A stretch of 38,409 nucleotides of DNA, taken from NCBI GenBank assembly GCA_028874795.1, contig JAPPHT010000079.1:1-38409 (forward strand), read 5' to 3'. Below are positions 1,228-30,249 of the stretch, piece after piece (within the stretch, counting starts at the first letter, position 1; each line of letters begins with the position of its first letter). The position numbers and the translations under genes were made by a program. This stretch comes from Chloroflexota bacterium (GTDB taxonomy: Bacteria; Chloroflexota; Dehalococcoidia; Lucifugimonadales; Australimonadaceae). Below the pieces are notes generated by a model. The model saw nothing but the letters and a program-made list of their open reading frames with translations, had not been told where the DNA came from and did not search any database.

Positions 1228-1244
1228 GGTGATGTCCTCCATAG

Positions 1245-2065: not shown

Positions 2066-5000
2066 CTATTGGGTGCTGAAGTCCCCTCTTGGGGTTGTCA
2101 CAGGAGGGCTCAGGTCCACTGTCAGGGCTGAAGCGAGGCTCTCCGTTCGCTCGTCGGGAACCTCCCGCAGGATGAACTCCATGAGGTCGTCCTGGCGCGG
2201 CTGGCCAAATACCATGCGATAGACCGCCAGCGACCTCCGAAGCAGGTCCACTCGCTCCTGGTCCCGCGACATTGGCAGGACCGGAGAGTGGCGCTGGATG
2301 CGGGCACTACCCTCCGTGAACACCCAGTGCGGAACGAGTCCCCCGTCTCTCTCGTACTCTTCGTCCGCAAGGCGGTAGGCCAGCTCCCACGGGCTGAGGC
2401 GGTCACCTCGCGCAAGCGCTCCTCGGGCCTCCTCGATCGCACGTGCCCCGACCTTCTGCGCGACGTTCTTTCTGATGGCGTGCCCGTGATAGCGGTGCAC
2501 GCGCCCTTCGCGCTGTTCGAGGTCGACCGGATTGGCTGGAAGATTCCAGTGGACGACGGCGTGGCAGTACCAGTGGAAGTCCAGTCCCTCCTGCCCTATG
2601 GAGGTCGTGCCCAGCACGAATGGCCAGAAGGGCGAGTTGAACGAGGCGCGGATGTCGTCGAGGTGCAGCCCCGCCTGCTGATCGGCCGCATTACCCCCGT
2701 CGCTAACGTAACGCCGCGCGAAATGCTGGCGCATCGAGAATGGCCGCCGCACCACACCGTCGGCCGTAGTCTCCCACTCCGAGACTGCCAGGGGACGGGC
2801 GGCGAGTTGGATGGCGTTACAAAGCTCGTCCACCAGGGCTGCCGCGCCGTCACCTCCGCCTATAGACTCTCGTATGACGTGGAAGAACTCGTCCAGAACG
2901 GCGGCAAGGCCACCCTCCAGCACATAAGCGAGGACCCGCCGCCAGTACTGCCTCTCCGCACCGGGAACGCTGGGGACATAGACGTTTCGCAACAGTCCCT
3001 CGGCTGCCGGAGTGCGAAAGAGCGATCTGAAGGCGTGAGCCGCCCTCATCGACTGTTCCTTCAACCCGTCGTGGGAGGGAGAAGTCGACGTGATACGCGA
3101 CAGGGCCCTCAGGGCCGCATTGGCCGGCGACCCCGTAGCAAGGGCCGCCATGACGTCAAGAAGGTCCCCGGGAGGACGTCCCATACTGGAACGGTCGGAC
3201 AGACCCGACATCACGCGAGCCGCGAGTGTCTGCCAGAGCATCGATTCTCCGGCTTCATCGTCGCCGCCCGTCGCGGGAGGGCCATGAAGCCAGTGGAGTG
3301 AGTCTGTCGACTCTCCAGACAGCAGGAGCGGCGCGACGGCATACCAGATCTCCTGCGGCGGCCCCTCGACGGAAGCGTCCCTGGTCAACTTCTCGACTTC
3401 GGGTCGCAGCCGTTCCCGCACTTCGTTCAGGAGGCCAGGAACGTCAGTCGGCGCGTAGTGAAGCGGATCTCCCGCGTCGGCAAGTGCAGCTGAAGGAGTC
3501 AGAAGCGAGAAGAGCGAGTACGAGTTGGGCGCGATACCCAGCAGCTGGGCCTCGTACCGCCGCGCCCGCTCGGCGTCCGGCACGTACCGGCGCTCGGCGG
3601 CGTAGCTCGACATGGCCGCGATGGCGCGCGGCACCATGGTCCACGATGAGAATACGAGGCGTTTGGTTGACGAGCGAGCCCTCTCGAAGTCGCTCCCCAG
3701 GGTGTACAGGGGAAGCGACGGTGGCAGCCAGAGGAGTTCAAACAGATGCCCGTCCTCGATACCCGCAAGCAGCCCTCGCATCCGGCCATTGCCGCCACCA
3801 ATGTCTCTCCGCTCCTCCATTGCCCGCCGGTCCACCTGCAGTCCGGTTCCGCGAGTGACCAGTTGGGCCGCCGCACCGTTGGATTCGACCTCAACCGTCG
3901 CTCTGAGTCTGTCCGAGAGCCGGTAGTTATCCATGAACGACAGCAAGTAGGGCGTGGACTTCCAGTATTCCATCACTCCCGGGGCGTTGATCGCGGCCGC
4001 CACTTCGCGGGCGCCAAGGTACGCTTCGACGTCATCGACACTGAGGTCGACCACAGCTTCGGCGATCTCCAACATCGGGTCTCCGCCGGACGCCCTGCCG
4101 CGACGCTCGGTCCTTGTCATGACTCGCAGCAGTTCGCTCTGAACCCTGTCGCGGTTTCGAGAGAGCCGGGCAAGCGCCGCGGCGCTGGTCTCGTCTTCGG
4201 AGACGGCGCGGGGCAGCGCCGAGCGAAACTCCCGCAGCGACTCCTCAAGCGGGGCCACTGAACCCTCCGGCCCCTGGAGAAACTCAACTGTCCGAAGGAA
4301 ATCCCTGTGGTGGTCGTCGTCATTCTCGTGGCTCAAGGTGTACATCTTGTATGGGGTAGCCGAAAGAAGCAGAGTTCGCACCTTGGTGTGTTCGTCCTCG
4401 TATTCGAACAGGCGCTGCGCCAGCTCACCACTGGTCGTCCTGTGGTTCAGCAACTCCCTGAATCGCTGGAACTCGTCCAGCACCACCAGGTCAGGTTCCA
4501 GTGCGTCAAGGCAGGAGTACGCAAGGAGCCTTCTGAGCTTGGATACGAACCGGCTTCTGACTCGCCACGCCCCGGGGTCTGTACCACTCGCCAGAAGATC
4601 GCGCACGTCCACGAACTCTCCATACAGCTCGGAATCGCGACCTCCGACCCGCTGTTCGAACTGCTTCGCTATGGTGTCGTCAATGGGACGGTCCGGGTGC
4701 CAGGACTCGTACTCCCTGAAACGGGCGACCGAGGCGAGCCCTCCCTGGAATACCCGGCGGGCGTTTGGCCCCAAATCACCCCAAGCCCGCGTGAGCATGC
4801 GAAACAGAATGATCCGCTCCTCGGCGACTCCCTCAGCGCTCGCAGACCCGAAAGAGGTACCCGGCGTGAGCGCGATCAGGTTCACGGACTGGTCGAGGGT
4901 GCCCAGCCGGTACGGCAGCAGCGTGATCCGCTGAGCGAGCGGCCTGGTATCGATGGAGAGGCGGTTCTTGATCCTTTCCACATTCTGGCGCGCAATCGCC

Positions 5001-5251
5001 TGGTTGGAGCAGATGTAGATGACGTCGATTCTTGGTACACCCTCGGCCCGCAGGTGGTCGATGGTCTGGGCTACGACGCCCGCGGCGACAAGCGTCTTTC
5101 CCAGCCCAACCTCGTCGGCGATCAGGAAACGACGTGTGCCGTTCTCAGAGACGTATAGTCTGCCGAAGGCGTACTCAGCCGTCCGGCGCTGGAATTCCTT
5201 CAGCCCGCTGAGGACCTTCTCCGTGTACGCCTCCGGCCCCTTCGCAGTCAT
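2066..5251 (-). CDS. SNF2/SF2-type DNA helicase of a three-gene defence-like operon
   Basis: A 1061-residue superfamily-2 helicase. Visible motifs: a Q-like motif (FQRRTAEYAF, 20-29), Walker A DEVGLGKT (46-53), Walker B as DEFQ (259-262) instead of DEAH/DEAD, SATPYK (297-302), and near the C-terminus GQEGLDFHWYCH followed by QREGRVHRYHGH (motif VI with Arg fingers). A long middle region of several hundred residues separates the two RecA-like lobes. Its ATG overlaps the TGA of the PLD gene by 4 nt, so the two are translationally coupled. SNF2-like helicases beside PLD nucleases occur in several phage-defence systems. The operon role is inferred: translocation on or remodelling of invading DNA, feeding the nuclease. 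No terminator was seen after the TAG. Confidence 0.88.
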   Translation of the reverse strand: MTAKGPEAYTEKVLSGLKEFQRRTAEYAFGRLYVSENGTRRFLIADEVGLGKTLVAAGVVAQTIDHLRAEGVPRIDVIYICSNQAIARQNVERIKNRLSIDTRPLAQRITLLPYRLGTLDQSVNLIALTPGTSFGSASAEGVAEERIILFRMLTRAWGDLGPNARRVFQGGLASVARFREYESWHPDRPIDDTIAKQFEQRVGGRDSELYGEFVDVRDLLASGTDPGAWRVRSRFVSKLRRLLAYSCLDALEPDLVVLDEFQRFRELLNHRTTSGELAQRLFEYEDEHTKVRTLLLSATPYKMYTLSHENDDDHHRDFLRTVEFLQGPEGSVAPLEESLREFRSALPRAVSEDETSAAALARLSRNRDRVQSELLRVMTRTERRGRASGGDPMLEIAEAVVDLSVDDVEAYLGAREVAAAINAPGVMEYWKSTPYLLSFMDNYRLSDRLRATVEVESNGAAAQLVTRGTGLQVDRRAMEERRDIGGGNGRMRGLLAGIEDGHLFELLWLPPSLPLYTLGSDFERARSSTKRLVFSSWTMVPRAIAAMSSYAAERRYVPDAERARRYEAQLLGIAPNSYSLFSLLTPSAALADAGDPLHYAPTDVPGLLNEVRERLRPEVEKLTRDASVEGPPQEIWYAVAPLLLSGESTDSLHWLHGPPATGGDDEAGESMLWQTLAARVMSGLSDRSSMGRPPGDLLDVMAALATGSPANAALRALSRITSTSPSHDGLKEQSMRAAHAFRSLFRTPAAEGLLRNVYVPSVPGAERQYWRRVLAYVLEGGLAAVLDEFFHVIRESIGGGDGAAALVDELCNAIQLAARPLAVSEWETTADGVVRRPFSMRQHFARRYVSDGGNAADQQAGLHLDDIRASFNSPFWPFVLGTTSIGQEGLDFHWYCHAVVHWNLPANPVDLEQREGRVHRYHGHAIRKNVAQKVGARAIEEARGALARGDRLSPWELAYRLADEEYERDGGLVPHWVFTEGSARIQRHSPVLPMSRDQERVDLLRRSLAVYRMVFGQPRQDDLMEFILREVPDERTESLASALTVDLSPPVTTPRGDFSTQ

Positions 5252-7101
5252 TTCAGACGTTTCCTAGCGGTCCAGAGTGCGTCCCATACGGCTTTGAACT
5301 CCTGTCCCAGCAGCTCGGCTCCCGCCTCGGTGCTGCGCAGTTCCTCAATCAGCGAATTCACATCATCCAGCCTGCGTGGATCGCTGCCCAACGTCTCCAA
5401 CATGCGCTCCATCAGACCCGGAAGTGCGACTCCCCACGACGAATCGGATTTGCCAGTCGAGAGTGAGCCGGCCAGGTCTGCCAGTGACAACTCCTGGTCC
5501 GGCGACAGCAGTAGCCAGAGCAGTTGCATGAATCTACGCTTGTCGCGCAATATGGCGGCAATCAGTCTGGGCAGACGGTCTTCGGGGAGCCCGGACAGCC
5601 GGATCACGCGGGCGAACCGACTGGACTCCGTCTTTCCTTCCAGCGATGCCCGAACCTCAATCGCCAGGAACGCCGACAGCTCCGACAATGACAGACCTTC
5701 GAACTCGGTACCGTCCTCAAGCGGCTCTCCGCGGTCGGCTTGCAGCGTTGCAGGCCAGCACCTGACCTCCGCAATCGCCGGACCCAGATCGGGCACCCTG
5801 GGCAACTCCAGCCGTATGCAGTACCGGCCATTTTCCGAAGCAGCCACGGAACCGCCGACATCCACGCGTGCCAAACTCTGCACGGCGTTGTCCAGCAACC
5901 GGTCGAGACGCATCTGGGACTCATCCTCGGCCGCAGTCCCCGCTTCGCATGTGTCGAACTCTTCGATCAGGCTGCCGAACGTGCCCGACTCTCCATCCCG
6001 GCTCCCCTTCAACAATGCGTCGATGCCGAAGCGGCTTTTCCTGCCCTCTAGTTCGACCATGAACTCGACGTTGCGGGGTTGGGTGCCAAGCGCCGCCGCC
6101 GTCGAGTTTGCCGATCCTACGGCAACTCGAGCGTTCCATCCGTCATCAGTCACGATGACCTTTGCGTGCAGGCCGGCCAGCAGAGGAAGGGACTCGTCGG
6201 CGTCCTCCGGCTCGGCCTCCAGGGCGGACCTAAAGGCGAAGACCTTCTCGAATGAGCTCAGCGAGTCCTGCGATACCGTCAGCAGCGCCTCCCTCCGGCT
6301 AACCAGCACTGAGCCTCTCCTTCTCCGGGTGACCGATCGCAGAAACTCCCCGTCCAGGAAGGGCGAGATAACCAATAGCCGACGGCGCTCAAGATCGGGA
6401 AAAGGGGGATTGGCCCGGCGCAGCCCGAACGGCATGAATCGGCTGAGCTTGAGCCCCTCCGGTGGGCTCCACCGCACCCGAAGCAGTTCCTCGGACAGCA
6501 GATCGACGCTATCCTGGTGGAACCCGGTTACAGGTCCTGGCGCCAGCGAGGGCAGGCGCTTGACGAAATCGGCGAGCGGGCGATTGATCGAGTAGGCGTT
6601 GACACGACTCTCGTCCAACACGCCACCCAGCACGAGGGATACGTCCCACGACGAGTCGAATGTCAGGTTACGCGACTGGGTGATCAGCCTGTATCTCACG
6701 GGTTGGTCTTCCGTACCCTCGCGCGCCTCGTAACGCAGCACCCACACCTTGGGATGGAATATGGCTCCACGCTCCATCGGGTCTGGCGGAAAGACGGCGA
6801 CCACGGAATCCTCTATGAAGGCCAGCGCAGACTGGACGGCTCGCGGCACGCCGGTGTAGCCGCCCTGGCTGAACACAATGATGCGTCCGGCGTACCTCCG
6901 CGCGCTCTCAAGCATGGAGAGCGGCTCGGTGGCCAGACGACCTTCTCCGTCCTGGGCGTCCCTGAAGGTGAACGCAAGCGGCACCGAGAGGAGCGCCATC
7001 AGGTCCAGGGTGAACGTCGTGCCGACGGCGCGGCTGAGAACGTAGCCGTCGGGGGGTCGGAGGGTATCCAGAAACAGCCGTCGCCGACCGGGCTCCAGCA
7101 T
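5248..7101 (-). CDS. Phospholipase D-like nuclease
   Basis: A 617-residue protein with two HKD-type half-sites: H116-P-K118 followed by SRN145LT, and H312-A-K314 followed by GS330AN332S. Both halves are present, as in PLD-superfamily nucleases that act through a covalent phosphohistidine. The C-terminal 270 residues are alpha-helical and unassigned. The start at 7101 is chosen because GGGGAG precedes it and TGATG overlaps the stop of the DUF6361 gene by 1 nt; an upstream in-frame ATG at 7158 would lie inside that gene. No signal peptide or membrane segment is seen, so it is probably cytosolic. It sits between the DUF6361 gene and the helicase with overlapping ends, implying fixed stoichiometry. 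It probably cuts nucleic acid rather than lipid. Confidence 0.85.
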   Translation of the reverse strand: MLEPGRRRLFLDTLRPPDGYVLSRAVGTTFTLDLMALLSVPLAFTFRDAQDGEGRLATEPLSMLESARRYAGRIIVFSQGGYTGVPRAVQSALAFIEDSVVAVFPPDPMERGAIFHPKVWVLRYEAREGTEDQPVRYRLITQSRNLTFDSSWDVSLVLGGVLDESRVNAYSINRPLADFVKRLPSLAPGPVTGFHQDSVDLLSEELLRVRWSPPEGLKLSRFMPFGLRRANPPFPDLERRRLLVISPFLDGEFLRSVTRRRRGSVLVSRREALLTVSQDSLSSFEKVFAFRSALEAEPEDADESLPLLAGLHAKVIVTDDGWNARVAVGSANSTAAALGTQPRNVEFMVELEGRKSRFGIDALLKGSRDGESGTFGSLIEEFDTCEAGTAAEDESQMRLDRLLDNAVQSLARVDVGGSVAASENGRYCIRLELPRVPDLGPAIAEVRCWPATLQADRGEPLEDGTEFEGLSLSELSAFLAIEVRASLEGKTESSRFARVIRLSGLPEDRLPRLIAAILRDKRRFMQLLWLLLSPDQELSLADLAGSLSTGKSDSSWGVALPGLMERMLETLGSDPRRLDDVNSLIEELRSTEAGAELLGQEFKAVWDALWTARKRLK

Positions 7102-8336
7102 CAGCTCCCCTCCAGTGCGCTCAGTATGTCGCCGCCGATGCTCTTCACCTGCGTCCACCTATACTCAAGAAGACCGGAGAAGGGATAGCCGCGCTTCCGA
7201 TCGCGTGCCTCGGCGTAGGAAAGACGTGCCCTGACACCCTTCAGCGCACGCTCACGCTCACGCACGAGCCGTCGTGCATCCTGACTATCCTGGATGGGAC
7301 CGCTTCCCGGCGCCGACACCAGCTCAAACCACCGGTCGGCGAACTCCCTGGTCCTTGGGCGCAGCCTCGGATTGGCATGATGCAGCCGGCGCCACATCGA
7401 GTCGCGGTCCCAGCGACTCAGTTCGGTGCCAAGTGCGTCAACGTCTCTAGACCAATTCGCGAGCCGGTCTGAGTAGTCGCGCTCGCTGGACTCGTCGCCC
7501 AACAACTCGGCGAGCATGAGATTGAACAGGAGGACACCACCCTGGTGGACGAGACTGAATAGCTGGGCGTCTCTCAGCCATGCACGCGCCGTAGCCGACG
7601 CACTCTCCGCCACGGGATGGTCCCAGGGCAGCCTTCCGGCTCTCAACTGCTCAACCCGGCTGTGCCTGAGAATGTGGGCAAGGAAACTCTGGCTATGGGT
7701 GAGCTCGACTCGTTCACGAAGGTACTCACCTTCCTCCAGCGAAAGCGTGAATGTAGCGATCGCCGGAAAGTCACGCGGCCGGGCGGGCACGTTGGCCCAG
7801 TTCCCGGCGACTCCTTCGGATGCCTCGTCCCGGCGCCCCTCCACTGGTTCCTCCAGCGCGCGACCGAAACGGACCCGAAAAGAGGGATGCCTTAGAGACT
7901 CGAAGTATGCAGGAATCGATCCCGGATACCTACGGATCCCCCAACTGGCCGTGCCCAGCCAGTAGATGTCGTGCGGCCATCGCTGCAGGTTGGCCCCGGC
8001 CTCCCGCCCAATCACTCCCGGTTCTCCAACATGACTCTCGACGAGGGCGTTTCGGAGTTGCAACTGCAGCCAGCGGGCATGGTTGGCGTGATTTGGCGTC
8101 GAGCTAGCCTCGACCATCTGCATAATCCAAGGGACGAAGAGGAAGTAGCGTGCCCTTGTCTGAATCGTGCTAGTGCCTGGGAAAAGCGCGTCTGAGAACG
8201 TGTCGCGGATGCTGCCGATTCCCAGTTCGTCGAGAGTGCCTGGCTCGTTCAGCGCGGAAACGAGCTGAAGAACCGTCCGTCGTTCGTGCTCGCTGCTATC
8301 CAACCAGCTGAGCGTGGAGTTAGAGACCTCATTCAT
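7101..8336 (-). CDS. DUF6361-family protein
   Basis: A 411-residue protein whose N-terminus (STLSWLDSSEHERR, then GTSTIQTRARYFLFVPWI) matches my memory of the DUF6361 family, a protein of unknown function found beside PLD proteins and helicases. The conserved FPGTSTIQTRARY block is at about residues 52-64. No catalytic motif, membrane segment or signal peptide is visible. It is the first gene of the operon and overlaps the PLD gene by 1 nt. There is no strong Shine-Dalgarno before the ATG. A promoter about 90 bp upstream would drive all three genes. PLD plus helicase combinations are known in catalogued defence systems (for example Azaca and Mokosh); I cannot tell whether this trio is one of these. 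Confidence 0.75.
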   Translation of the reverse strand: MNEVSNSTLSWLDSSEHERRTVLQLVSALNEPGTLDELGIGSIRDTFSDALFPGTSTIQTRARYFLFVPWIMQMVEASSTPNHANHARWLQLQLRNALVESHVGEPGVIGREAGANLQRWPHDIYWLGTASWGIRRYPGSIPAYFESLRHPSFRVRFGRALEEPVEGRRDEASEGVAGNWANVPARPRDFPAIATFTLSLEEGEYLRERVELTHSQSFLAHILRHSRVEQLRAGRLPWDHPVAESASATARAWLRDAQLFSLVHQGGVLLFNLMLAELLGDESSERDYSDRLANWSRDVDALGTELSRWDRDSMWRRLHHANPRLRPRTREFADRWFELVSAPGSGPIQDSQDARRLVRERERALKGVRARLSYAEARDRKRGYPFSGLLEYRWTQVKSIGGDILSALEGS

Positions 8337-12793: not shown

Positions 12794-13843
12794 CTACTGG
12801 AACTGGGCAATGGCCCAGACCTCTTCGTCGCCTATCTTCATTGCCTCGAAGTGGACTTCGCCGTGACCGATGGGTCCTCTCGAGCTCGTCTCCCAGGTGT
12901 CGAGCGCCTCGGTGCCCTCATGGGGCTCTCCCCACTCATCTCGGAAGCAATGCGTCACAGTGCTGGACTCCGGGACCCGCATGTTCGGGTGGAACCGTAT
13001 TCCCAGGTCTTCTGCCGAAGGGCTGTATGAGCCATGCCGCACCCGCAGCTTGTCCTCGGGGGGGTCCTCAGGGAAGAAAGACATCTGTGGGTTGCGCAGT
13101 TCTCGCACTTCGGAGACCTTCAGGCCCATGTGGCACTGCAAGAACCAGACCGGGGAGGGAACGTACCGCAGGCAGGCGTTTGCGGTGGCTTCGCGGCTGG
13201 CGTCAGGTGCGATTCGTTCGCGGACCCTGTCGATCACGTCAAACGTAAAGCGGCCCTCCCGCGCATACTCCTCCCGGACAACGGGCTCGAACATATCTGG
13301 GAAGAAGGCCAGAGTAGCAGCCACGCGGTCTACCAGAACCTCCCCAGGTTCGGGCCGGTGTTGCCTTGTCCGGCGAAAGGCGAAGGCCAACTGCTGGCCA
13401 TCGAGAAGGCAGTGAACGATTTCGTGCCACTTGCTCCAGTATCGTCGGTACCCATGCCATCCCAGACAGTTGATGATTGCCCAGTACTTCCGGTGCCAGG
13501 GCTTCGGGTCCAGGCGACGAACGGTAATGGCGTCCGTGTCTCCGTCGAATTCGGTCTTCAGGTCGCCGATGGCAGCCTGCTGGACCGGCGCCTCCTTTCC
13601 GAGCACTGCATCGATTTCCTCTTCGGTATGCACCTCGGTGAAGCTCATATCCAGCGATGCCGCGAATTCAGCCGCCAGATCGCTCAGGGTCTGAGGGGTG
13701 CCGTGTGCCGCCGCCCAGGCGCGGAGCCGGGCAAGGCAGTGTTGGACGATCATGTCCTCGTAGTTGCCGGCTGAGCCGAGCTGCAACTCCCCAGCGACGC
13801 GCTTGAGCTCGAGGTCGTAGGTGCCGTTTCGGCTGTTGCTCAC
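12794..13843 (-). CDS. ImmA/IrrE-type metallopeptidase (CapP-like)
   Basis: A 349-residue predicted zinc peptidase with H140-E-I-V-H144 at the end of a helix and a downstream helix VDRVAATLAFFPDMF (about 171-185) that stands for the third-ligand helix of ImmA/IrrE proteins; its expected Glu appears as Asp172. The C-terminal 150 residues are unassigned. It overlaps the XRE gene by 4 nt (ATGA). Such pairs work as damage switches: the peptidase cleaves or inactivates the repressor. In CBASS loci the same pair is known as CapH/CapP. The divergent operon here is CBASS-like, which supports that role. Confidence 0.82.
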   Translation of the reverse strand: MSNSRNGTYDLELKRVAGELQLGSAGNYEDMIVQHCLARLRAWAAAHGTPQTLSDLAAEFAASLDMSFTEVHTEEEIDAVLGKEAPVQQAAIGDLKTEFDGDTDAITVRRLDPKPWHRKYWAIINCLGWHGYRRYWSKWHEIVHCLLDGQQLAFAFRRTRQHRPEPGEVLVDRVAATLAFFPDMFEPVVREEYAREGRFTFDVIDRVRERIAPDASREATANACLRYVPSPVWFLQCHMGLKVSEVRELRNPQMSFFPEDPPEDKLRVRHGSYSPSAEDLGIRFHPNMRVPESSTVTHCFRDEWGEPHEGTEALDTWETSSRGPIGHGEVHFEAMKIGDEEVWAIAQFQ

Positions 13844-14268
13844 TTCGCCTCCTCCAGGAAGCGCTTCACGGCCAGATAGAGGTCGCGCCAGTCTTCCTTG
13901 CCCTTCCCCGTCCGCGGGCCGCCGCCGCGTCGGGCGACAATCGACTGGTCAATTTCGAGAAGGGTCATCGTCTGTCGATAGGTCAGACCCACTTCCTCTG
14001 CGAGTTCACCGAGGCTTCTTGGGACCTCGATCGATGGCGGCTCATATTCTTGGGGCGCTGGCCCTCCTCTGAGCAGGTATTCCACCGACGCGTTGAGGGC
14101 GTCAGCCACCTGGAGCAAGCGTCGGCCGCTGATGCCTGAGCGGTCTTGTTCGACCTCCCAGATGAAGCTCTTGGACAGACCAGAACGGTCCGCCAAGGCT
14201 TCGAGGGTAAGGCCCAGCTCATTCCGAATGAAGTTGATCCTCTGGCCCACAGTATCCAGCTGCGGCAT
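13840..14268 (-). CDS. XRE-family repressor (CapH-like)
   Basis: A 142-residue protein. Residues 7-62 form a helix-turn-helix of the XRE/lambda-Cro type (GQRINFIRNELGLTLEALAD, then RSGLSKSFIWEVEQDRSG). The C-terminal part holds RSLGELAEEVGLTYRQTMTL, a second HTH-like stretch and possible oligomerisation or cleavage region. GGGGGAA precedes the ATG. It is cotranscribed with the IrrE-like peptidase and divergent from the CBASS-like operon. A promoter with a small palindrome over its -10 box lies 20-53 bp upstream and is the probable target. Confidence 0.85.
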   Translation of the reverse strand: MPQLDTVGQRINFIRNELGLTLEALADRSGLSKSFIWEVEQDRSGISGRRLLQVADALNASVEYLLRGGPAPQEYEPPSIEVPRSLGELAEEVGLTYRQTMTLLEIDQSIVARRGGGPRTGKGKEDWRDLYLAVKRFLEEAK

Positions 14269-14287
14269 GGTTCCCCCGCTTTCAGGC

Positions 14288-14316
14288 TTGACATACCGGA
14301 ATCCAGGAAATATACT
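14288..14316 (+). promoter_or_regulatory. Near-consensus promoter facing the CBASS-like operon
   Basis: TTGACA (14288-14293), a 17-nt spacer and TATACT (14311-14316). This is the best sigma-70 promoter in the window. Transcription would start at about 14322-14324 and run to the MBL gene 360 nt away. Confidence 0.7.
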
Positions 14317-14321
14317 GGTAT
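14312..14321. promoter_or_regulatory. Probable XRE operator over the -10 box
   Basis: ATACTGGTAT is an inverted repeat (ATAC-TG-GTAT) covering most of the -10 element; ATACC at 14293-14297 gives a third, separated half-site. Binding here would block the plus-strand promoter. The assignment to the XRE protein is inferred from position. Confidence 0.5.
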
Positions 14322-14322
14322 T

Positions 14323-14394
14323 ATGGAAGCACTTGGTCTGACACTCCGGCTCCTATCCTACTTCTCAAACTGCGAAAACGCAAGTCGGGCATAG
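14323..14394 (+). CDS. Possible leaderless 23-residue leader peptide
   Basis: An ATG begins 6 nt after the -10 box, exactly where transcription should start, and opens a 23-codon frame (MEALGLTLRLLSYFSNCENA plus three residues). It has no Shine-Dalgarno, so translation would have to be leaderless. The toxin-antitoxin-like operon at 21887 shows the same -10-to-ATG geometry. It may be a regulatory upstream peptide or chance. Confidence 0.3.
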   Translation: MEALGLTLRLLSYFSNCENASRA

Positions 14395-14684
14395 CTGAGG
14401 GACGAGAGAAGGGCATCAGGCCAGCGTGTCTGCACCACGCGGCTCCTATAGGGAGCTCTGCGTATGGCAGACCGAAATCTACATACGGCATGATGGCCGT
14501 AGGCGAAGGAGTAGAGGAATGATTGCAGGTGGGAAGCTCACGTTGAAGGTGGCGACGCCTCCAGGCGTCTACGAGAACATGCCCCGCGACCCGGGTTTGC
14601 CTTGCAATCCTGGTTGCGGGCAGGCACATCCCGGTCAGGAAACAGACTACGCGAACTCCCGCATACGGATAGGAGGACGGACCG
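14395..14684 (+). other. Long leader before the MBL gene
   Basis: About 290 nt between the micro-frame and the MBL start. It holds weak hairpins (GCTCC with GGAGC near 14442-14456; GACGCC-TCCA-GGCGTC at 14554-14569). A frame from 14426 overlapping the MBL start is not convincing. No known riboswitch was recognised. Confidence 0.35.
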
Positions 14685-15806
14685 ATGGCTAAGTTGACCT
14701 TCTTCCCCCTCGGCAACGCCGACTGCTGCCGCATAGACCTGGACAACGGCAACAAGCTGTTGTTCGACTATGCGGCAACCCGCGACCCCTCGGACAAGAA
14801 CGACCTCCGGATCGACCTGCCCAAGGAGCTACGGAGCGACCTACAGGCAGCTAAACGCAACCACTACGAGGTTGTCGCGTTCACGCATCTGGACAAGGAC
14901 CACTACGGTGGCGCCTCGGAGTTCTTCTACTTTGAGCATGCGCAGAAGTACCAAGGCGGCGACCGTGTACGCATAGAGACGCTCTGGGTGCCCGCAGCGG
15001 TTATTGTCGAGAAGGCACCGGACGAGGATGAAGCCCGGCTCATCCAGAGTGAAGCCCGCTACCGCCTCCAGAAGGGCGCGGGAATCCGCGTCTTCTCGCG
15101 GCCCGATGCGCTCAAGGACTGGTTGAAGGAACATGGCCTGACCGTTCAGGAACGGGCTTTCCTCATCACGGATGCAGGGCAGGTGGTGCCAGAGTTCAAC
15201 ACGAAGGCACACGGCGCCGAGTTCTTCGTCCACTCGCCGTTCGCAAGCCGCAAGGAGGACGGCACCCTCGTTGATCGTAACCGCGACTCCATCGCCATGC
15301 AGGCGACGTTCGTGTGCGGCGGAACCGCAACACGAGTAATCCTGGGCGCCGACCTCGACCACGAGACTTTGTCAGACATCGTGCGCGTCACGAAGGCTAA
15401 GGGAAATCAATCCCGGCTTGCATGGGATGTGTTTAAGCTTCCCCATCACTGCAGCTACCTTTCGCTGGGACCGGAGAAGGGCAAACACAAGACCGAGCCT
15501 GTACCGGAAGTGAAGTGGCTCTACGGGAAGCAGGGTCAGACACGCGGAATCATGGTATCCACCAGCAAACCCATACCGGCTGGCGACGAGATTCAGCCAC
15601 CCCACAAGCAAGCCGCTGAGTACTACCGTGAGGTGGCCAGCGCCATCAGGGGTCAGTTCGTTGTGACCATGGAGCATCCCAGTCGATCCAAACCGGACAA
15701 GCTGGAAATCACGGCCTGTGACGGCGGTGCTACGGTCCTGAAGCGAGTCCCCTCAGCTGCCGTTGTGGCCACCAGGACACCGTCCCCCAGGGCGGGGCGA
15801 GCGTAG
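14685..15806 (+). CDS. Metallo-beta-lactamase-fold hydrolase
   Basis: A 373-residue MBL-fold enzyme. The metal site is H68-L-D70-K-D72-H73 in the style of ComEC/Rec2-type MBL domains, followed by a later acidic ligand in LGADLDHE and a histidine motif LPHHCSY. No signal peptide or membrane segment is visible. AGGAGG 8 nt upstream supports the ATG. It is the first gene of the operon, 6 bp before the E2-E1-JAB gene. MBL proteins beside E2-E1-JAB fusions and polymerase-beta-type nucleotidyltransferases were noted in comparative genomics of prokaryotic ubiquitin-like systems by Iyer, Burroughs and Aravind. The substrate is unknown; a nucleic acid or cyclic nucleotide is plausible. Confidence 0.85.
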   Translation: MAKLTFFPLGNADCCRIDLDNGNKLLFDYAATRDPSDKNDLRIDLPKELRSDLQAAKRNHYEVVAFTHLDKDHYGGASEFFYFEHAQKYQGGDRVRIETLWVPAAVIVEKAPDEDEARLIQSEARYRLQKGAGIRVFSRPDALKDWLKEHGLTVQERAFLITDAGQVVPEFNTKAHGAEFFVHSPFASRKEDGTLVDRNRDSIAMQATFVCGGTATRVILGADLDHETLSDIVRVTKAKGNQSRLAWDVFKLPHHCSYLSLGPEKGKHKTEPVPEVKWLYGKQGQTRGIMVSTSKPIPAGDEIQPPHKQAAEYYREVASAIRGQFVVTMEHPSRSKPDKLEITACDGGATVLKRVPSAAVVATRTPSPRAGRA

Positions 15807-15812: not shown

Positions 15813-18089
15813 GTGGAGCGATTCTCCTTCCTTACTCAGGGAGCCGCGGTGGCGCCCGAACGCCTCACCGTTGGCAGGGCACGGGGGCTGGCGTGTTTCC
15901 TCGCGGCGAGACTGAACGCGTTCGCCGAGCTGAAGGAATGTCGCATCGGAGGACAAGATGGCACACATCACGACATCGTGTTCGTGGATGTGGACGTGGA
16001 AGTACCCCAACACCCGACCCACGACATTCGTCACTCCGAACCTCTGGCGATTGTGTTCACTCCGGAAGATGACCACCCACCGGCTGTCTTTGCCTTGCGG
16101 CCGGACTTTCCCCGTGTGCCCCATCTCAATCTGCTCCCTGCGGGATTTCCCCCCAGCCTGTGTTTGTATGACCGGCCGTTCAATGAAGTCCTCATCGACT
16201 GGACTGCTCCCAAGTTCGTTGAGCGCATCAGGCAGTGGCTGTCCCAGACCGCCAACGGAACGCTGCACGCAGGTGACCAGCCCCTGGAACCGCTGCTATA
16301 CCTGTCTGACCCGATAGCGGACCTCATAGTCCATGATGAGACGTTCTCCGTAGATTTCCCCGATGAGCCGTTATGGCTATCCGTACAGATGGTCCCGAGG
16401 GGCCCTCTCTTGTTCACGGCTATCTGCCAGCCATTGAATGTGAGGGAGATTCCCAACGAACTCAATTGCATCGCGTTGGTCATCTCATGCCCACCCCGGG
16501 TGCATGGAGTCATCAGTCATAGGCCCGATACGCTTCAAGAACTTCACGACCTCACCGCGGACTCGGGACTCGACCTCATTCAGTTGCTTCGTGAGGAGTT
16601 GAGGAAGTGGCTTGAAGATTCTGACGTGGAGACGGAGCACTTGCTCGGCGTCAGTCTTGCGCTCATGATTCGACTCCCCAAAATGAGAGTGCCAGGGGGC
16701 CCCACCGAGGTCGTTGAGGTTCGTGCCTTCATGGCGATGGCAGCGGTCGGCGAGGTCGGAGCGGACATCGGGGTGTGGGCGGTGAATGACGGCAAGCCAG
16801 GTCTACTGATCTCTCCCGACGAAACCAGGGTTGGTCAGGGTGTACTACTTGTCCCCCTGAATGCACATGCTGCGTTCTCTCGTTCGCAAGCGGCGGCTGC
16901 TAATGGATTCGGGCAGCCACCTCGCACGCAAATCGCGGCCATTGGCGTGGGCGCGCTCGGCTCCCAGGTAGTGTCCAATCTCGTGCGGTCCGGGTTCGGG
17001 CAGTGGGCGCTGATCGACGGGGACGTGCTCCTGCCTCACAACCTCGCTCGACACGCACTGGACGGGCTGCATCTTGGATTGCCCAAGGCGCTCGCTCTCG
17101 CAGGGGTGTCGAACGGCATAGTCGGTGGCGGACAGATCGCTGGCGGCATCGTGGCAGACGTCTTGAGACCAAGGGAGAACAGCTCACTCGTCCACGCCGC
17201 GCTCTCGGAAGCTGAAGTCATCCTCGACATGTCGGCCTCTATTCCTGTCGCCAGGCACCTGTGCAGAGACGTGGAGGCACGGGGTCGGCGGATCTCCTTG
17301 TTCCTCAACCCCTCAGGAACTGCGTTGACTCTGCTCGCCGAGGATAGAGCCCGGAAAGTCCCCTTGGACATGCTGGAGATGCAGATGTACAGGGAGATTG
17401 CCGACAACCCGGAGTTGAGCGGGCTCCTGGAAACCACCGGCAGGCTGAGGACGGGGCAGTCATGCAGGGATCTATCGACCCAGATTCCACAGGACCTCGT
17501 AGCCCTCCATGCTGCCATTGGCAGCCATGCGGTCCGGAGAGCATTGGAGTCGGAAGGCGCCCAGATATCAACATGGCGTGTGGAACCGATTACACATGCC
17601 GTGGGCGCCATCCAGAGCAAGCCCGCACAGCCAAGCAAGAGGAAGTTGGGGAGATGGACCGTGCATATAGATTCTCAACTCCGGGAGGAGTTGGCCGGCC
17701 TGCGCCGCGAGCGGCTGCCCAATGAGACCGGCGGTGTCTTGATTGGCGCGTCGGACATGCAGCGCGGGCTGATCTATGTTGTCGGTGCCATTGCCTCCCC
17801 GGAAGACAGCGAGGAGTCACCGACGTCCTATGTGCGGGGTTCGAAAGAGCTGGAGCAGCGCGTGTCAGAAATCTCGGATGCTACGGCTGGCATGCTCGGT
17901 TACATCGGGGAGTGGCACTCGCATCCTGAAGGAGTCAACGTCCGGCCGAGCGCCAAAGACCGGGCTCTTCTGGCATGGATCAAGAGCAACATGCAGATGG
18001 ATGGGACTCCAGGGGTGATGGCTATCATCGGCGACGATGGGAGGATCGGTCTTCGTCTGGCCGATCCCGGTCCTGGGAGCGCACGGTAG
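15813..18089 (+). CDS. E2-E1-JAB triple fusion (Cap2-Cap3-like)
   Basis: A 758-residue ubiquitin-like conjugation enzyme with three domains. Residues 1-170 form an E2-like domain with likely catalytic Cys117 (SLCLYDRPFNEV) and the typical WL.....G.LH...QPLEP ending. Residues 360-620 form a ThiF/E1 adenylation domain, with GVGALGS (about 377-383) and DGD, and Cys551 in GQSCRDLST as probable thioester site. Residues 620-758 form a JAB/MPN isopeptidase with E638, H702-S-H704 and S713..D716, all ligands present. Type II CBASS normally splits this into Cap2 (E2-E1) and Cap3 (JAB). The chain could thus both attach and release its target. The start is GTG 15813, 6 bp after the MBL stop; the Shine-Dalgarno is weak. 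No separate Ubl gene lies in this operon. Confidence 0.9.
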   Translation: MERFSFLTQGAAVAPERLTVGRARGLACFLAARLNAFAELKECRIGGQDGTHHDIVFVDVDVEVPQHPTHDIRHSEPLAIVFTPEDDHPPAVFALRPDFPRVPHLNLLPAGFPPSLCLYDRPFNEVLIDWTAPKFVERIRQWLSQTANGTLHAGDQPLEPLLYLSDPIADLIVHDETFSVDFPDEPLWLSVQMVPRGPLLFTAICQPLNVREIPNELNCIALVISCPPRVHGVISHRPDTLQELHDLTADSGLDLIQLLREELRKWLEDSDVETEHLLGVSLALMIRLPKMRVPGGPTEVVEVRAFMAMAAVGEVGADIGVWAVNDGKPGLLISPDETRVGQGVLLVPLNAHAAFSRSQAAAANGFGQPPRTQIAAIGVGALGSQVVSNLVRSGFGQWALIDGDVLLPHNLARHALDGLHLGLPKALALAGVSNGIVGGGQIAGGIVADVLRPRENSSLVHAALSEAEVILDMSASIPVARHLCRDVEARGRRISLFLNPSGTALTLLAEDRARKVPLDMLEMQMYREIADNPELSGLLETTGRLRTGQSCRDLSTQIPQDLVALHAAIGSHAVRRALESEGAQISTWRVEPITHAVGAIQSKPAQPSKRKLGRWTVHIDSQLREELAGLRRERLPNETGGVLIGASDMQRGLIYVVGAIASPEDSEESPTSYVRGSKELEQRVSEISDATAGMLGYIGEWHSHPEGVNVRPSAKDRALLAWIKSNMQMDGTPGVMAIIGDDGRIGLRLADPGPGSAR

Positions 18090-18097: not shown

Positions 18098-18829
18098 ATG
18101 GCCTCAACCTTAGACTTTCTGAAACTAACAGACCGCTACGAGCTCAAGGCTCGCTTGCTGCCGGCCCTTCTTGCAGTACTGGTGGGGGCTCCCGGTGCCG
18201 CGGCAGTGCTCAGCTCAGCCCAACTGGGCTGGCTTACCAATCTGTTGACCGGAGGAGGGCTTGCCACCGTATGCCCTGTCGCGCTTGCGTACTTCGCCTC
18301 AGCCGCTGGTCGTCGTTACGAACGGAAGATCTGGCCTCGGTGGCCATACGATTCGCCAACCAACCGCTGGCTCAACCCGAATGACGCAACCTGCTCTCAG
18401 CAGCAGAAGGAGCTGTGGTACGCCGCGATCCGGGAGACCACCGGGATCGACATCCCCCGCGTCGCCGCCAAGGGAGACCAGGAAGAGCTCGGCCGGGTCA
18501 TCAACGATGCGGTTCGTGCTTTGCGGACCTTCTTTCGAGGCAAGGAGGGCCATGGTCTACTGGCTACTCACAACGAGGACTATGGCTTCGCGCGGAACCT
18601 TGCCGGAATGTGGTTGGTTTGGCTTCCACTATCTATAAGCAGCGTCGTTGCAGCCTGGCTCAGCTATGTTGTAGAGGGAACCGGGTTGTCCTGGGGCGTG
18701 ATGGCAACCGCAATACTATTGGTGTGCCTGATCCTACTACGGGCGCTGCCAGGATACGTTCGGCAACGCGCAGACCGATATGCAGAGAGTTTCTTCGGAA
18801 TGCTGCCCCGTGTGATGTCTCATCCGTGA
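18098..18829 (+). CDS. Four-helix membrane protein, candidate effector
   Basis: A 243-residue protein: helices at about residues 20-40 and 47-68, a cytosolic-looking loop of about 100 residues with WLNPNDATCSQQQKELWY and a charged helix, then two helices at 168-190 and 196-217. The start at 18098 has GGGAG 4 nt upstream and follows the fusion gene by 8 bp. Family not recognised. Membrane proteins with two to four helices are the commonest CBASS effectors, opening or breaking the inner membrane when a nucleotide signal binds. This is a candidate by position only. Confidence 0.7.
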   Translation: MASTLDFLKLTDRYELKARLLPALLAVLVGAPGAAAVLSSAQLGWLTNLLTGGGLATVCPVALAYFASAAGRRYERKIWPRWPYDSPTNRWLNPNDATCSQQQKELWYAAIRETTGIDIPRVAAKGDQEELGRVINDAVRALRTFFRGKEGHGLLATHNEDYGFARNLAGMWLVWLPLSISSVVAAWLSYVVEGTGLSWGVMATAILLVCLILLRALPGYVRQRADRYAESFFGMLPRVMSHP

Positions 18830-18971: not shown

Positions 18972-19793
18972 ATGAAACTTGCCATCGTTCGTGAGACTTA
19001 CAAGACAGTCCGTCCTCGGCTCCCCGGAGCCTTTCTGGTCAGCGTGATTCACTGCGTGCCAATTTACGTCTTCACTTGGTGCTTCAGCGTGATCGATGAC
19101 CTGTCCGCCCGTGTCTCGATAAGCCTGCTCGTCGCCATGTTGCCAGTGGAAGAGCTCTTGTCCGAACCGAGACCCTGGAAGAAGCGAGGGGAACAATACG
19201 GGATCTCGGCATTCTTCGTGCTCGCATTGCTGCTTGCAGCCGCCGACGAATTCGATTGGCATGGGCTGGCGATCAACGTGGTCGTTGCGATGCTCATACT
19301 CCCCTACGGATGGCTGGTCTGGAAGCTGATGCGCGGGAGCGGGTTGCTGCTAATGGCGCTAGTGCTTGCGATCGCCTTGACCATGGTCTACTGGACTGCT
19401 GCACTGGCCGGTGATGAAAGTTGGTTCGAACTTCTGTTGCTGCCGGTGCCGGTAGTGATATTCGGCGGAATCATCTGGGCACCTCTGGCACGGAAGATAT
19501 TGGACGTTGCCGGACGACGGAAAGACTGTCCATTGAGCGGCCCAGGCATGCAGGCGCTTACAATGGCCACACTGTTTCTGCCGGTCATTATTGTCGCCGT
19601 CGCCGTTCCAGGGATGCTTGACCTCAGCCCGGCCTGGTCGGCAGTATCGCTGACCATCGTCGGTGTCTTGCTCAGCTCCCTGGTTGCTTCGCCATTGAGG
19701 GTATTCCTGCTGAGATGGGGAAAACTGGAGCCAGCGTCGTTCACTCACTCCGAAAAGGGACTCGAAGACGACCGTCCCAAGAATGGAGGATAA
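18972..19793 (+). CDS. Polytopic membrane protein ending in Gly-Gly
   Basis: A 273-residue protein with about seven to eight hydrophobic segments and short loops, no signal peptide and no recognised family. The hydrophilic C-terminal tail after the last helix ends in DDRPKNGG. By the positive-inside rule (LRVFLLRWGK) the tail should face the cytosol. A terminal di-glycine is the kind of end an E1 enzyme activates, which matters because the neighbouring CD-NTase lacks one; the link is speculative. The ATG has GAGG about 10 nt upstream. A 142-bp gap without a gene precedes it, and the next gene starts 6 bp after its stop. Confidence 0.7.
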   Translation: MKLAIVRETYKTVRPRLPGAFLVSVIHCVPIYVFTWCFSVIDDLSARVSISLLVAMLPVEELLSEPRPWKKRGEQYGISAFFVLALLLAAADEFDWHGLAINVVVAMLILPYGWLVWKLMRGSGLLLMALVLAIALTMVYWTAALAGDESWFELLLLPVPVVIFGGIIWAPLARKILDVAGRRKDCPLSGPGMQALTMATLFLPVIIVAVAVPGMLDLSPAWSAVSLTIVGVLLSSLVASPLRVFLLRWGKLEPASFTHSEKGLEDDRPKNGG

Positions 19794-19798
19794 GCTTC

Positions 19799-20869
19799 AT
19801 GCCGTCGGAACAGCACGAACAGTGGAAGCGGGACCTCTTCGACCACCTGGATAGGAAGCTGAGCGGATGTGTCTCGTGCGAGTTCGGCGAGAGCCGGGAT
19901 GGTCACGCCCCCACGCATCGCGGGAGGCACCGCGAGCCTTCCCAGCAGATCCTGTGGACGTGCGAACGAATGCACCCTCACAGCTACGATCTTCTGCGGG
20001 GTGCAGGGTCCGTAGTGATGGAGCAGCAACAGTCGGCTCCAATCAGCGGCCGGTGCCGTCCGGACCTCACCATCCTGGACACCCACCGTAAGCCCCTGGC
20101 ATTCATTGAGGTCGTGCGGTCCAACCGTCCCAGCAACTCCCTTCGAGTGGCAAAAGAGTTGGGAATCCCGCTGTTCACGATTCTTGCCCCTCACAGACGG
20201 TCACTCCGCCCGGGTCTTCAGTTGTCACGTCCCTGGTGGGACTTCGATCCCACTCTGCCGGAGGAAGACAGACGCCACATGTACTTCATGGAGCAGGTTG
20301 CGGACGAGTTGACGAGACGGAATGGCGATGGCGACTCAACGTGGGCCAATTTGGACATGATGCTGGATGACGACAGGGAATTGGTCTTTGCGAGTTTCCG
20401 AGGCTCTCCGCCCGACCTGGCGAGCCCCACGTTTCCGAGAACGGGAGACCTGATCGTCGCGGAGCTGTGCTCATGGGGCTGCGACAAGGCAATGGAGGTG
20501 CTGAAACAAGAACGCATGATGGACGAACAGGATGCCATGGCCTCCATGCGTGAGACTCTAGAGCAAGACCTGGGGAGGATCATCCTCAGCGCCATAGGGG
20601 GCGCGAAAGACCAGGCCGCAAGGTTCGTAGTTCCCGTGGGCACGCAGGAAGTGCATGTTGAGATGAGCCTGCAGCCGCTCAATCCCCACGTCGGAGCCAA
20701 CGATCCCATCGTCCTGAGCCTGCTGGATCAGCTGTCGCAAGCGGCCGAGACGGTACGGAACAGGTACAGACGAGACACGTCGGGCAACAGCATCGAGAAC
20801 CCAAGCCCAAGCGGAATGGTCCCTGACGGCGATGTGGGCAGCCTTTCGGCGCAGCGACCTGAGCAGTAG
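19799..20869 (+). CDS. PD-(D/E)xK-like protein with altered active site
   Basis: A 356-residue protein. Residues 85-125 (CRPD89LTILD, then FIE104VVRS, then LGIPLF) match a restriction-endonuclease-like core of the type seen in CoiA-like proteins. The expected ExK lysine is valine (E104-x-V106), so cleavage may be lost or the lysine relocated. The N-terminal part has CVSC and WTCERMH, possible metal ligands. The C-terminal 180 residues are unassigned. GGAGG 9 nt upstream supports the ATG. It sits between the membrane genes and the CD-NTase, so a nucleotide-responsive effector or recognition role is possible. The first codons (EQHEQWK) are repeated exactly before the recombinase at 33420. Confidence 0.65.
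   Translation: MPSEQHEQWKRDLFDHLDRKLSGCVSCEFGESRDGHAPTHRGRHREPSQQILWTCERMHPHSYDLLRGAGSVVMEQQQSAPISGRCRPDLTILDTHRKPLAFIEVVRSNRPSNSLRVAKELGIPLFTILAPHRRSLRPGLQLSRPWWDFDPTLPEEDRRHMYFMEQVADELTRRNGDGDSTWANLDMMLDDDRELVFASFRGSPPDLASPTFPRTGDLIVAELCSWGCDKAMEVLKQERMMDEQDAMASMRETLEQDLGRIILSAIGGAKDQAARFVVPVGTQEVHVEMSLQPLNPHVGANDPIVLSLLDQLSQAAETVRNRYRRDTSGNSIENPSPSGMVPDGDVGSLSAQRPEQ
19808..19828 (+). repeat. 21-nt direct repeat, copy 1
   Basis: This stretch encodes EQHEQWK at the start of the PD-(D/E)xK-like gene and recurs base for base at 33390-33410, in the same reading frame relative to the downstream gene. A chance 21-nt match in a window this size is unlikely. Confidence 0.8.
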
Positions 20870-20880: not shown

Positions 20881-21714
20881 TTGCCCATCCCGGATTCGAC
20901 ACTGGGACAATGGAGCCATCACCACGCGGCGACGGCATCGGTGCAGGCACACACGGCAATCCGTGACGCCTTGGTCCGTCAGGGTCTGCCGGTGCATGAG
21001 ATGTTCCTTCAAGGCTCTTACAAGAGCGACACGAACCTGCGAAGGGACAGTGATGTGGACCTGGTCGTACAACTTGATGAGCGTCTGAGGCCCAGGGTGG
21101 CGGCGCTCACTGGGCCGCAACTCCAGGACAACGAGTCTCACAAGCTTGCATATGGAAGATGGCAGTCGTTCCGCCGGCTTGTGTTGGCCGCACTCAGAGC
21201 CAGATTCGGTCAAGCGGTGACTCCAGGCCGCAAGTCCCTGAAGATCGCCAGGGGTCCGATTCCGGCGGCGGCCGACGTTGTCGTGACGCTCAAGTGTGGC
21301 AACGGCATTGCACTCTACATCCCCGACGAGCATCGTTGGGCCGTGAGCTATCCCCAGCAGCATCACTCCAAGGGAGCGAGGAAGGAACGGGGCACTGGCG
21401 GCAGGTACAAGCGGGCAACCCGCATGTTCAAGGCGGCGCGCAATCACCTGATTGACAGCAACGCGCTCGCCAAGGGCACGGCACCTTCGTACTTTGTGGA
21501 GTGCCTCCTGTACAACGTCCCCAATGGCCTGTTCAGAAGCAGCCTCGGCGAAACGTACGTCGAAGTCGTCAACTGGCTCTGGGCGGCGGAACTGGCCGAT
21601 TTCACGTGCCAGAACCAGCTGGTCGACCTCTTCGGTTCATCCAAGGATCAGTGGTCCGTGGACAAGGCCCGAGCCTTCATCCAAGCGCTCGCCCGCCTAT
21701 GGAACGAATCGTAG
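20881..21714 (+). CDS. CD-NTase-like nucleotidyltransferase
   Basis: A 277-residue polymerase-beta-type enzyme. The active site is G45-S46-Y47 followed by D58-V-D60 and a third acid at D132 (AADVVVTL), as in CD-NTases of CBASS and OAS/cGAS-like proteins, which make cyclic or linear oligonucleotide signals. The start is TTG at 20881 with GGGAG 7 nt upstream. It is the last gene of the operon, 11 bp after the nuclease-like gene. In type II CBASS, Cap2 conjugates the C-terminal residue of the CD-NTase, usually small (Gly/Ala). Here the chain ends ARLWNES, so that chemistry may differ. The product nucleotide cannot be told from sequence. Confidence 0.82.
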   Translation: MPIPDSTLGQWSHHHAATASVQAHTAIRDALVRQGLPVHEMFLQGSYKSDTNLRRDSDVDLVVQLDERLRPRVAALTGPQLQDNESHKLAYGRWQSFRRLVLAALRARFGQAVTPGRKSLKIARGPIPAAADVVVTLKCGNGIALYIPDEHRWAVSYPQQHHSKGARKERGTGGRYKRATRMFKAARNHLIDSNALAKGTAPSYFVECLLYNVPNGLFRSSLGETYVEVVNWLWAAELADFTCQNQLVDLFGSSKDQWSVDKARAFIQALARLWNES

Positions 21715-24540: not shown

Positions 24541-24766
24541 GAGTGCGCAATGCGGCTGCAGCCGGAGAGGCGGATAAGGGGAAAGGCTTGAAGCACACGA
24601 AGGTCGGAAGACCTGACGCCGGAAAACCAATCCAGGCGGTTGGCAGCGTCCGGAATGCCGCCCACTCCAAAGCGACAGGACTTTCCGGTCTGGGAGGTTC
24701 ACACACGATTAGCACACTAGGTGAGTTGGAGTCAGTGGACCATGAGACTCGTACATGAGGCCATCG

Positions 24767-25573
24767 ATGGAGCATGAGACCACACGGCAGGTTGAATCCT
24801 GCTTGCCGCAGCCACTTACACGCCGCAACGCGGATGGTCAGGTCTACCAGCGCCTGGCGGTTGTGGACAGGCAGATCGAAGAGGCCCTTGGGCTGAACGA
24901 CGAAGAGCTTCGAAGCCGACTGGCAGTTCGTGACGAAGAGTCGCCCATTTATCTAAAGGAGGAGTCGCTGGCTTATCTGATACGGCACCACCACGCAGCG
25001 GGAAATCGAAAATGCGTCAATGACCTGACTGAGTGCCTGCTGAAGCGTTGTGCGACCTGGATAAACGGCAAGTTGAGGGGCTTGAGAACGGACCTGAGGG
25101 AAGATGGGTATGCAGCAGTCGTCGCGGAGATATTCGCCCGGATGCTGGACATGGCTAGCGACCGCGGGGACTTTCTTCAAGTCCGCTTCTGGAAGGGCAT
25201 CGAGAGAATCACGGTGGATGTCTTTCGGAAGCAAATCAGGCAGTTCGATACTGAGTCCAGCGGTGACTACGACCAAGTGACCATCGACGAACTAACTCAG
25301 CAGGGCGCCGTGGTGGTGCCGGCTGCTTCCGGTGATCGCAACGTCGCATCGGAGGCGATCGATAACGTCTTGATTGAAGCGGCGCTGAATCAGCTGGAGG
25401 AGCCCATCCGGTCCGCATACCTGCTCCGCCACCTCGAGGACTGGCCAATCGAAGACAAAGACCCAGCTGTACAGACGATCAGCAGACACTTTGGCAAGAC
25501 GCCTCGAACGATCAGAAACTGGCTGTCCAAAGCTGATGAGATTCTGGAGGCATGGCGAGGAGAACAGAGATGA
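24767..25573 (+). CDS. Sigma-factor-like protein
   Basis: A 268-residue protein. The N-terminal 70 residues are unassigned. A helical region follows (LLKRCATWINGKLRGL..DGYAAVVAEIFARMLD...FWKGIERITVDVFRK) resembling sigma region 2 of ECF-type factors. The C-terminal HTH (LNQLEEPIRSAYLLRH, then ISRHFGKTPRTIRNWLSKAD) resembles region 4. GAGG 6 nt before the ATG at 24767 favours it over the ATG at 24755. It overlaps the next gene by 4 nt. It probably directs RNA polymerase to the downstream IrrE-UvrD and Bil genes; that target is inferred. Confidence 0.7.
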   Translation: MEHETTRQVESCLPQPLTRRNADGQVYQRLAVVDRQIEEALGLNDEELRSRLAVRDEESPIYLKEESLAYLIRHHHAAGNRKCVNDLTECLLKRCATWINGKLRGLRTDLREDGYAAVVAEIFARMLDMASDRGDFLQVRFWKGIERITVDVFRKQIRQFDTESSGDYDQVTIDELTQQGAVVVPAASGDRNVASEAIDNVLIEAALNQLEEPIRSAYLLRHLEDWPIEDKDPAVQTISRHFGKTPRTIRNWLSKADEILEAWRGEQR

Positions 25574-30246: not shown

Positions 30247-30249
30247 GGC

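Follow-up and report, generated by a model that had tools for sequence, protein, structure and literature searches.

The window analysed here, a stretch of 38,409 nucleotides from a Chloroflexota contig, carries a pair of overlapping reverse-strand genes back to back with a forward-strand operon, and the intervening control region contains one near-consensus promoter and two candidate operators.

12794-13843, reverse strand: putative metallopeptidase gene (P0002, 349 amino acids), with HEIVH at residues 140-144 and E168 as candidate third ligand
13840-14268, reverse strand: putative XRE-family repressor gene (P0001, 142 amino acids), from Pfam HTH_3, PADLOC capH and PDB matches
14288-14316, forward strand: promoter TTGACA-17-TATACT, directed toward the 6A-MBL operon, from a consensus scan (11 of 12 bases)
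14293-14302, forward strand: candidate operator O2, ATACCGGAAT, a spacer sequence that overlaps the final base of the -35 box and differs from ATACNNGTAT at one position
14312-14321, forward strand: candidate operator O1, ATACTGGTAT, over the -10 box, toward the expected start site
14685-15806, forward strand: MBL-fold protein of the 6A-MBL system (NF058524, 395 bits; cut-off 220)
15813-18089, forward strand: E2-E1-JAB fusion, 6A-MBL cap2_3 (NF058523, 638 bits; cut-off 320), with Prok-E2_A, ThiF and Prok-JAB domains
18098-18829, forward strand: protein with hydrophobic segments, possible membrane effector (translation read by eye; no PADLOC or NCBIfam match)
18972-19793, forward strand: apparently polytopic membrane protein, possible effector (translation read by eye; no family match)
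19796-20869, forward strand: protein of unknown family, possibly nuclease-like (translation read by eye; no family match)
20881-21714, forward strand: CD-NTase-like nucleotidyltransferase (PADLOC Cyclase, 249 bits; NF053871, 202 bits, below the cut-off of 350)

The two reverse-strand genes share 4 bp (GTGA), and GGAGGAGG lies upstream of the P0002 start codon. Their coding scores, 0.32 bits per codon for P0001 and 0.25 for P0002, are similar to the 0.23 of the MBL gene, which was itself in the training set, and the P0002 frame scores above the other five frames. On the opposite strand, TTGACA-17-TATACT begins only 19 bases from the P0001 start codon. The two genes probably encode a repressor together with a protease that disposes of it; they stand back to back with an anti-phage operon, whose promoter they appear to keep closed as long as the cell is not under threat.

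With both of its marker proteins above the NCBIfam cut-offs, the operon downstream of the promoter is identified as a 6A-MBL anti-phage system. Between promoter and MBL gene lies a 363-nt leader (14322-14684), for which a structured RNA was not supported (no Rfam match, fold z -1.5); a 57-residue open reading frame at 14519-14692 overlaps the MBL start and carries no coding signal (-0.05 bits per codon). In the 15 plasmid 6A-MBL stretches surveyed below, an annotated patatin-like phospholipase gene follows the MBL gene in ten, and no annotation names a cyclase, although many genes there are hypothetical; the window has its CD-NTase-like gene. Of the CD-NTase and effector expected of CBASS, the former has family matches here (PADLOC Cyclase, and NF053871 below its cut-off) and the latter only candidates read by eye. 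No paper using the term 6A-MBL, and none on MBL/JAB/ThiF/patatin defence systems, was found in a literature search from which subscription papers were mostly absent.

The operon is embedded in a larger defence-gene block, flanked by two similar large serine recombinases at 37-1242 (reverse strand) and 33126-34976 (forward strand; both from translations read by eye); because they bracket the defence genes, they suggest that the island is or was mobile. A Bil operon, BilA-D, occupies 29725-32628 on the forward strand (PADLOC 168-558 bits), approximately 8 kb downstream of the CD-NTase gene, so that, on these family matches, 6A-MBL and Bil represent two ubiquitin-like conjugation systems in one island. 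The island also contains ZacABC genes at 2066-8336 (reverse strand; very strong PADLOC matches, 373-984 bits) and, at 26211-29603 on the forward strand, a fusion of M78 (IrrE), UvrD helicase and PDDEXK, near which a protein with a sigma-region-4 match is encoded (24755-25573).

P0001 matches Pfam HTH_3 at 39.4 bits (cut-off 23) and the PADLOC capH model at E 7.8e-9, and the sequence-only reading had been accurate in describing a divergent XRE gene that faces a TTGACA-17-TATACT promoter. The closest solved structure is PDB 7t5u, titled as the N-terminal domain of E. coli MS115-1 CapH (E 5.5e-10), while Deinococcus DdrO (6jq1) aligns with residues 9-138 (E 8.4e-7). A CapH-type XRE HTH domain is present: across 59-68 aligned columns, 24-29 residues are identical to those of each of seven CapH relatives, as against 19 of 60 for DdrO. 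The C-terminal 74 residues behave differently, scoring 56 against the DdrO C terminus, a value that none of 5,000 shuffles reaches (best 55), and above shuffles against none of the seven CapH C termini (P 0.14-0.90). This match is a short one, since a PDB search with the C terminus by itself ranks unrelated chains above the C-terminal chain of DdrO, which appears only at E 0.9; the match gains strength from its collinearity with the full-length alignment. A DdrO-like C-terminal dimerisation domain with the cleavage-loop region is present in P0001. As judged by these alignments, P0001 is a CapH-like HTH joined to a DdrO-like, not a CapH-like, C-terminal domain. The CapH/CapP-like label of the sequence-only reading thus suits the HTH; it does not extend to the C terminus or to P0002, which has no M78/CapP profile match. 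An AlphaFold model of P0001 alone (pLDDT 51.3) has DdrO as its top Foldseek match, which is best taken as sequence-driven support only.

In DdrO, residues 116-121 form the cleavage-site loop, E116-L117-R118-G119 were tested and are important for cleavage by PprI, and R118 touches single-stranded DNA in a modelled complex, according to part of the text of PMC10904395. If this loop corresponds to the ELRG of the aligned 6jq1 sequence, its counterpart in P0001 would be A112-R113-R114-G115.

CapH/CapP consists of an HTH repressor and a protease activated by single-stranded DNA, and governs CBASS and related operons. A CapH-like HTH occurs in 98 plasmid records, of which 60 were listed and seven, the CapH relatives used here, were fetched. 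All seven have an HExxH partner (six annotated as ImmA/IrrE, that of L050 recognised by alignment), five of these CapH/CapP-type pairs show a 4-bp gene overlap, and annotated CBASS or ubiquitin-like genes lie opposite five pairs. TTGAC occurs in every one of the seven intergenic regions, as it does at the 6A-MBL loci L053 and L054. GTTCGG stands on both sides of it in all seven, the downstream copy following the start of TTGAC by 29-47 bases and so lying past the expected -10. Flanking GTTCGG copies are a feature of these seven fetched relatives, not taken from a published criterion, and the window differs from them: a motif search of its promoter region returned no GTTCGG.

The window resembles these systems in the GLSKS(F/Y)(I/L)WE(V/L)E helix of the P0001 HTH, found also in L046-L048, in an overlapping or adjacent gene pair divergent from a defence operon, and in sites placed around a TTGAC promoter. 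It departs from them in the length of P0001 (142 residues against 106-111 in the CapH relatives), in a C-terminal domain unrelated by score, in the missing GTTCGG sites and in the lack of a recognisable M78 domain in P0002. To DdrO, P0001 is collinear over its full length, including the C-terminal cleavage-loop region, and has likewise an HExxH partner; unlike DdrO and PprI, however, the window genes are adjacent and stand beside one defence operon, and P0002 is not recognisable as PprI by sequence.

The peptidase named by the sequence-only reading is encoded outside the coordinates it had given, in the gene at 12794-13843 on the reverse strand; HEIVH is found there, but the label rests on one motif and is not established. 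The third-ligand column of CapP falls on E168 by hhalign but on D172 in a MAFFT alignment. HExxH arises in 5.3% of P0002 shuffles, and HExxH with a downstream E...[AD]..[AF], a pattern written after seeing the protein, in 0.2%. Searches of P0002 gave no match in Pfam at E up to 10, none in NCBIfam at E up to 0.1 and no M78/CapP domain by profile. In a weak alignment to CapP that keeps the catalytic register, its catalytic region scores 5.4 bits on a 14-protein M78 profile, a value reached by 29 of 1,000 shuffles that kept HEIVH. When three true M78 proteins are left out one at a time, each scores far higher on that profile, at 64-145 bits (64 and 75 for the two distant ones). The C-terminal region gives no CapP signal, with 185 of 1,000 shuffles as high, in a test of little power because the true M78 protein L059, when left out, also scores only -1.6 bits. 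Whole-profile hhalign yields 22.5 for P0002, less than the 23.1 or more attained by at least 10 of 200 shuffles in which HEIVH was kept; an earlier hhalign against CapP alone had been slightly favourable, at 20.7 against a best of 19.7 among 30 plain shuffles.

No convincing relatives of P0002 were found in overlapping genome samples from the phylum (400), the class (197) and the order (147), where the best match outside its own genome reaches E 0.002 over 28 residues, and none in viral contigs, plasmids or phages. Genome contigs hold one match, of 71 residues at 100% identity, in a Chloroflexota MAG fragment that is useless for comparison because it evidently comes from the same or a near-identical organism and begins inside the gene. 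An AlphaFold model of P0002 alone (pLDDT 36.5) was discarded. In sum, P0002 is a likely but unproven metallopeptidase of marginal M78 similarity and, as a presumed protease, an unusually divergent one.

The position of the pair can be compared across 6A-MBL loci. Our sample comprised 15 of 118 matching plasmid records (chosen from the first 21 of 40 listed) and seven loci from genomes of the same phylum, giving 23 with the window. A divergent HTH with an HExxH protein occurs at 8 of the 23, the window included: as two genes in the window, L053, L054, L027, L030 and L036 (L030 and L036 being nearly identical), and as a single HTH-M78 fusion in L072 (4425-5507) and L074 (4296-5360), where repressor and protease appear to be joined in one chain. 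A WYL regulator takes the divergent slot at five loci (L024, L026, L029, L037 and L071), and exact inverted arms of at least 8 bases are found in four of these five WYL-locus intergenic regions. Such genes resemble CapW/BrxR-type control in filling the same slot, assigned as WYL only, and differ from the window in being a single WYL protein with no protease. At one locus, L032 of Bradyrhizobium sp. 26S5, divergent genes at 3003-4767 are annotated as a sigma-70 factor, a hypothetical protein and an ImmA/IrrE peptidase, possibly a sigma/anti-sigma version of the switch; the sigma-annotated protein has no Pfam domain at E up to 10. At the other nine (L025, L028, L031, L033, L034, L035, L038, L073 and L075) no regulator was recognised, as judged by annotation or by eye, with one upstream gene (L025) scanned against Pfam. 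On this survey, the divergent slot that the pair occupies is one in which 6A-MBL operons often have a regulator.

The most serious rival reading retains repression by P0001 at the -10 box and denies that P0002 cleaves it, making P0002 either an unrelated protein or a partner, akin to an antitoxin or sensor, whose binding relieves repression. The absence of any M78 signal beyond the motif, with 5.4 bits where distant M78 proteins attain 64 and 75, and the frequency of a chance HExxH (5.3% of shuffles) speak for it. P0002 nevertheless occupies the same divergent position as the separate or fused M78 partners at seven other 6A-MBL loci, and its neighbour P0001 carries the DdrO-like cleavage-loop region, which together leave this reading rather unlikely.

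Between the XRE gene and the 6A-MBL operon, a consensus scan found TTGACA-17-TATACT as the sole site matching at least 9 of 12 positions; at the 9-of-12 level, 5 kb contained 2 sites, compared with 1.0 +/- 0.9 in shuffles. The -10 box is buried as the sequence-only reading had claimed: the palindrome ATACTGGTAT overlaps five of its six bases. This palindrome alone is not strong evidence, because a perfect 4+4 palindrome with a gap of 2 lies over the -10 in 3.1% of dinucleotide shuffles and one with any gap of 0-8 in 29%. The operator case is helped by the second copy, O2, whose centre is 19 bp from that of O1, the two together contacting both promoter hexamers. Within 80 bp, 1.4% of flank shuffles contain another ATACNNGTAT match with no more than one mismatch (P 0.014); in a looser test, which takes ATACTGGTAT itself as the reference and allows two mismatches, the figure is 5.8% (P 0.058). 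The range 14293-14321, offered by the sequence-only reading as the place to look for binding, spans both sites, though only the one at the -10 had been named. The operator word is somewhat common in the window and not special to the promoter, because the whole window holds 10 matches with at most one mismatch, eight of them distant from the promoter, where 2.9 are expected.

The same reading had proposed a search for the word upstream of homologous operons, and the outcome was mostly negative. With at most one mismatch, ATACNNGTAT is found at none of the seven promoters of the CapH relatives, and the motif occurs in 3 of 14 6A-MBL upstream regions, namely the window and the near-identical pair L030 and L036; the others tested were L053, L054, L027, L071, L072, L074, L024, L026, L029, L037 and L032, which completes the set of 14 loci at which a regulator was recognised. 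In L030 and L036, the Phaeobacter/Ruegeria 6A-MBL promoters, ACTGGTAT forms an inverted pair whose second copy makes up TATACC, a -10 by eye. As a shared operator it was set aside, since the L030/L036 repressor has a different recognition helix and the likeness is possibly coincidental. The arrangement that seems most like the window's among the regions compared is that of L074, where the perfect arms AGTTTACA and TGTAAACT flank a presumed -10 (by eye) and one arm comes right after the -35.

Site placement bears on a second rival, in which the pair is a toxin-antitoxin or selfish module concerned with autoregulation only, the defence promoter is no target and the palindrome is a chance product of an AT-rich -10. 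The 29% of shuffles with some 4+4 palindrome over the -10 would fit this, as would the 9 of 23 6A-MBL loci without a recognised XRE-peptidase or WYL neighbour. It is nonetheless improbable, given the second motif copy (P 0.014, or 0.058 in the looser test), comparable site positions in all seven CapH-relative intergenic regions and a single promoter-like site of at least 9 of 12 between XRE gene and operon. Some regulators activate from a position next to the -35, as O2 would allow, but that P0001 is an activator or anti-activator working from O2, and not a roadblock at the -10, is very improbable indeed, with the promoter already at 11 of 12 consensus bases, O1 overlying the -10, and DdrO and CapH described as repressors in parts of PMC10904395 and PMC13373217.

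We therefore think it probable that the pair is a repressor-protease switch akin to DdrO/PprI and CapH/CapP, though not plain CapH/CapP. P0001 would bind at the -10 box (O1) and within the spacer (O2), barring RNA polymerase from the near-consensus promoter and repressing the 6A-MBL operon, and would probably also limit its own divergent transcription. P0002, as the dedicated metallopeptidase of P0001, would respond to stress (the analogy points to single-stranded DNA produced by phage attack or DNA damage) and, once activated, would cut P0001 in the loop of the C-terminal dimerisation domain, predicted near A112-G115; the cut repressor would then leave the DNA and the defence operon would come on. 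The gene pair, its coupling, the promoter, the positions of the sites, the identity of the operon, the DdrO-like C terminus and the recurring layout are read from the DNA itself; binding, repression, cleavage and trigger we infer.

In favour of the switch are the identity of the operon, the CapH-like HTH with a full-length DdrO-like alignment, the GTGA coupling and the HExxH motif, together with, as far as sequence comparison goes, the separate or fused HTH and M78 proteins at seven other 6A-MBL loci and the site positions of the CapH relatives. Against it count a P0002 without family match or convincing relatives, the unfavourable whole-profile hhalign, and a short operator word without GTTCGG that most of the homologous operons tested do not share. 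The prediction by the sequence-only reading of tight repression with release on peptidase activation fares accordingly: the anatomy, the layout at seven other 6A-MBL loci and the sites of the CapH relatives fit it, and the family label attached to it was half right.

Switch control of ubiquitin-like operons is itself already established, because CapP is activated by single-stranded DNA and cleaves CapH, and CapW or CapH with CapP occurs in 219 of 544 Bub operons, as reported in part of the text of PMC13373217. The novelty lies in the combination: a CapH-type reader is joined to a DdrO-type cleavage domain, the HExxH partner belongs to no recognised family, and the operator word differs. A bolder extension, tentative and on balance doubtful, is that P0002, far from being a stray M78 protein, represents a new HExxH repressor-protease family, either very divergent or unrelated, that has replaced CapP at this 6A-MBL operon and cuts a chimaeric repressor with a CapH-type reader and a DdrO-type cleavage domain, its trigger possibly other than single-stranded DNA.

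Two specific predictions follow from the switch: P0001 should have its cleavage loop near A112-G115, and 14293-14321 should contain two operators. If true, it would tie together in one repressor the DNA-damage switch of Deinococcus and the CapH/CapP switch of CBASS, and the upstream slot of 6A-MBL systems would hold, interchangeably, a WYL regulator, a repressor-protease pair in two genes or an HTH-M78 fusion in one.
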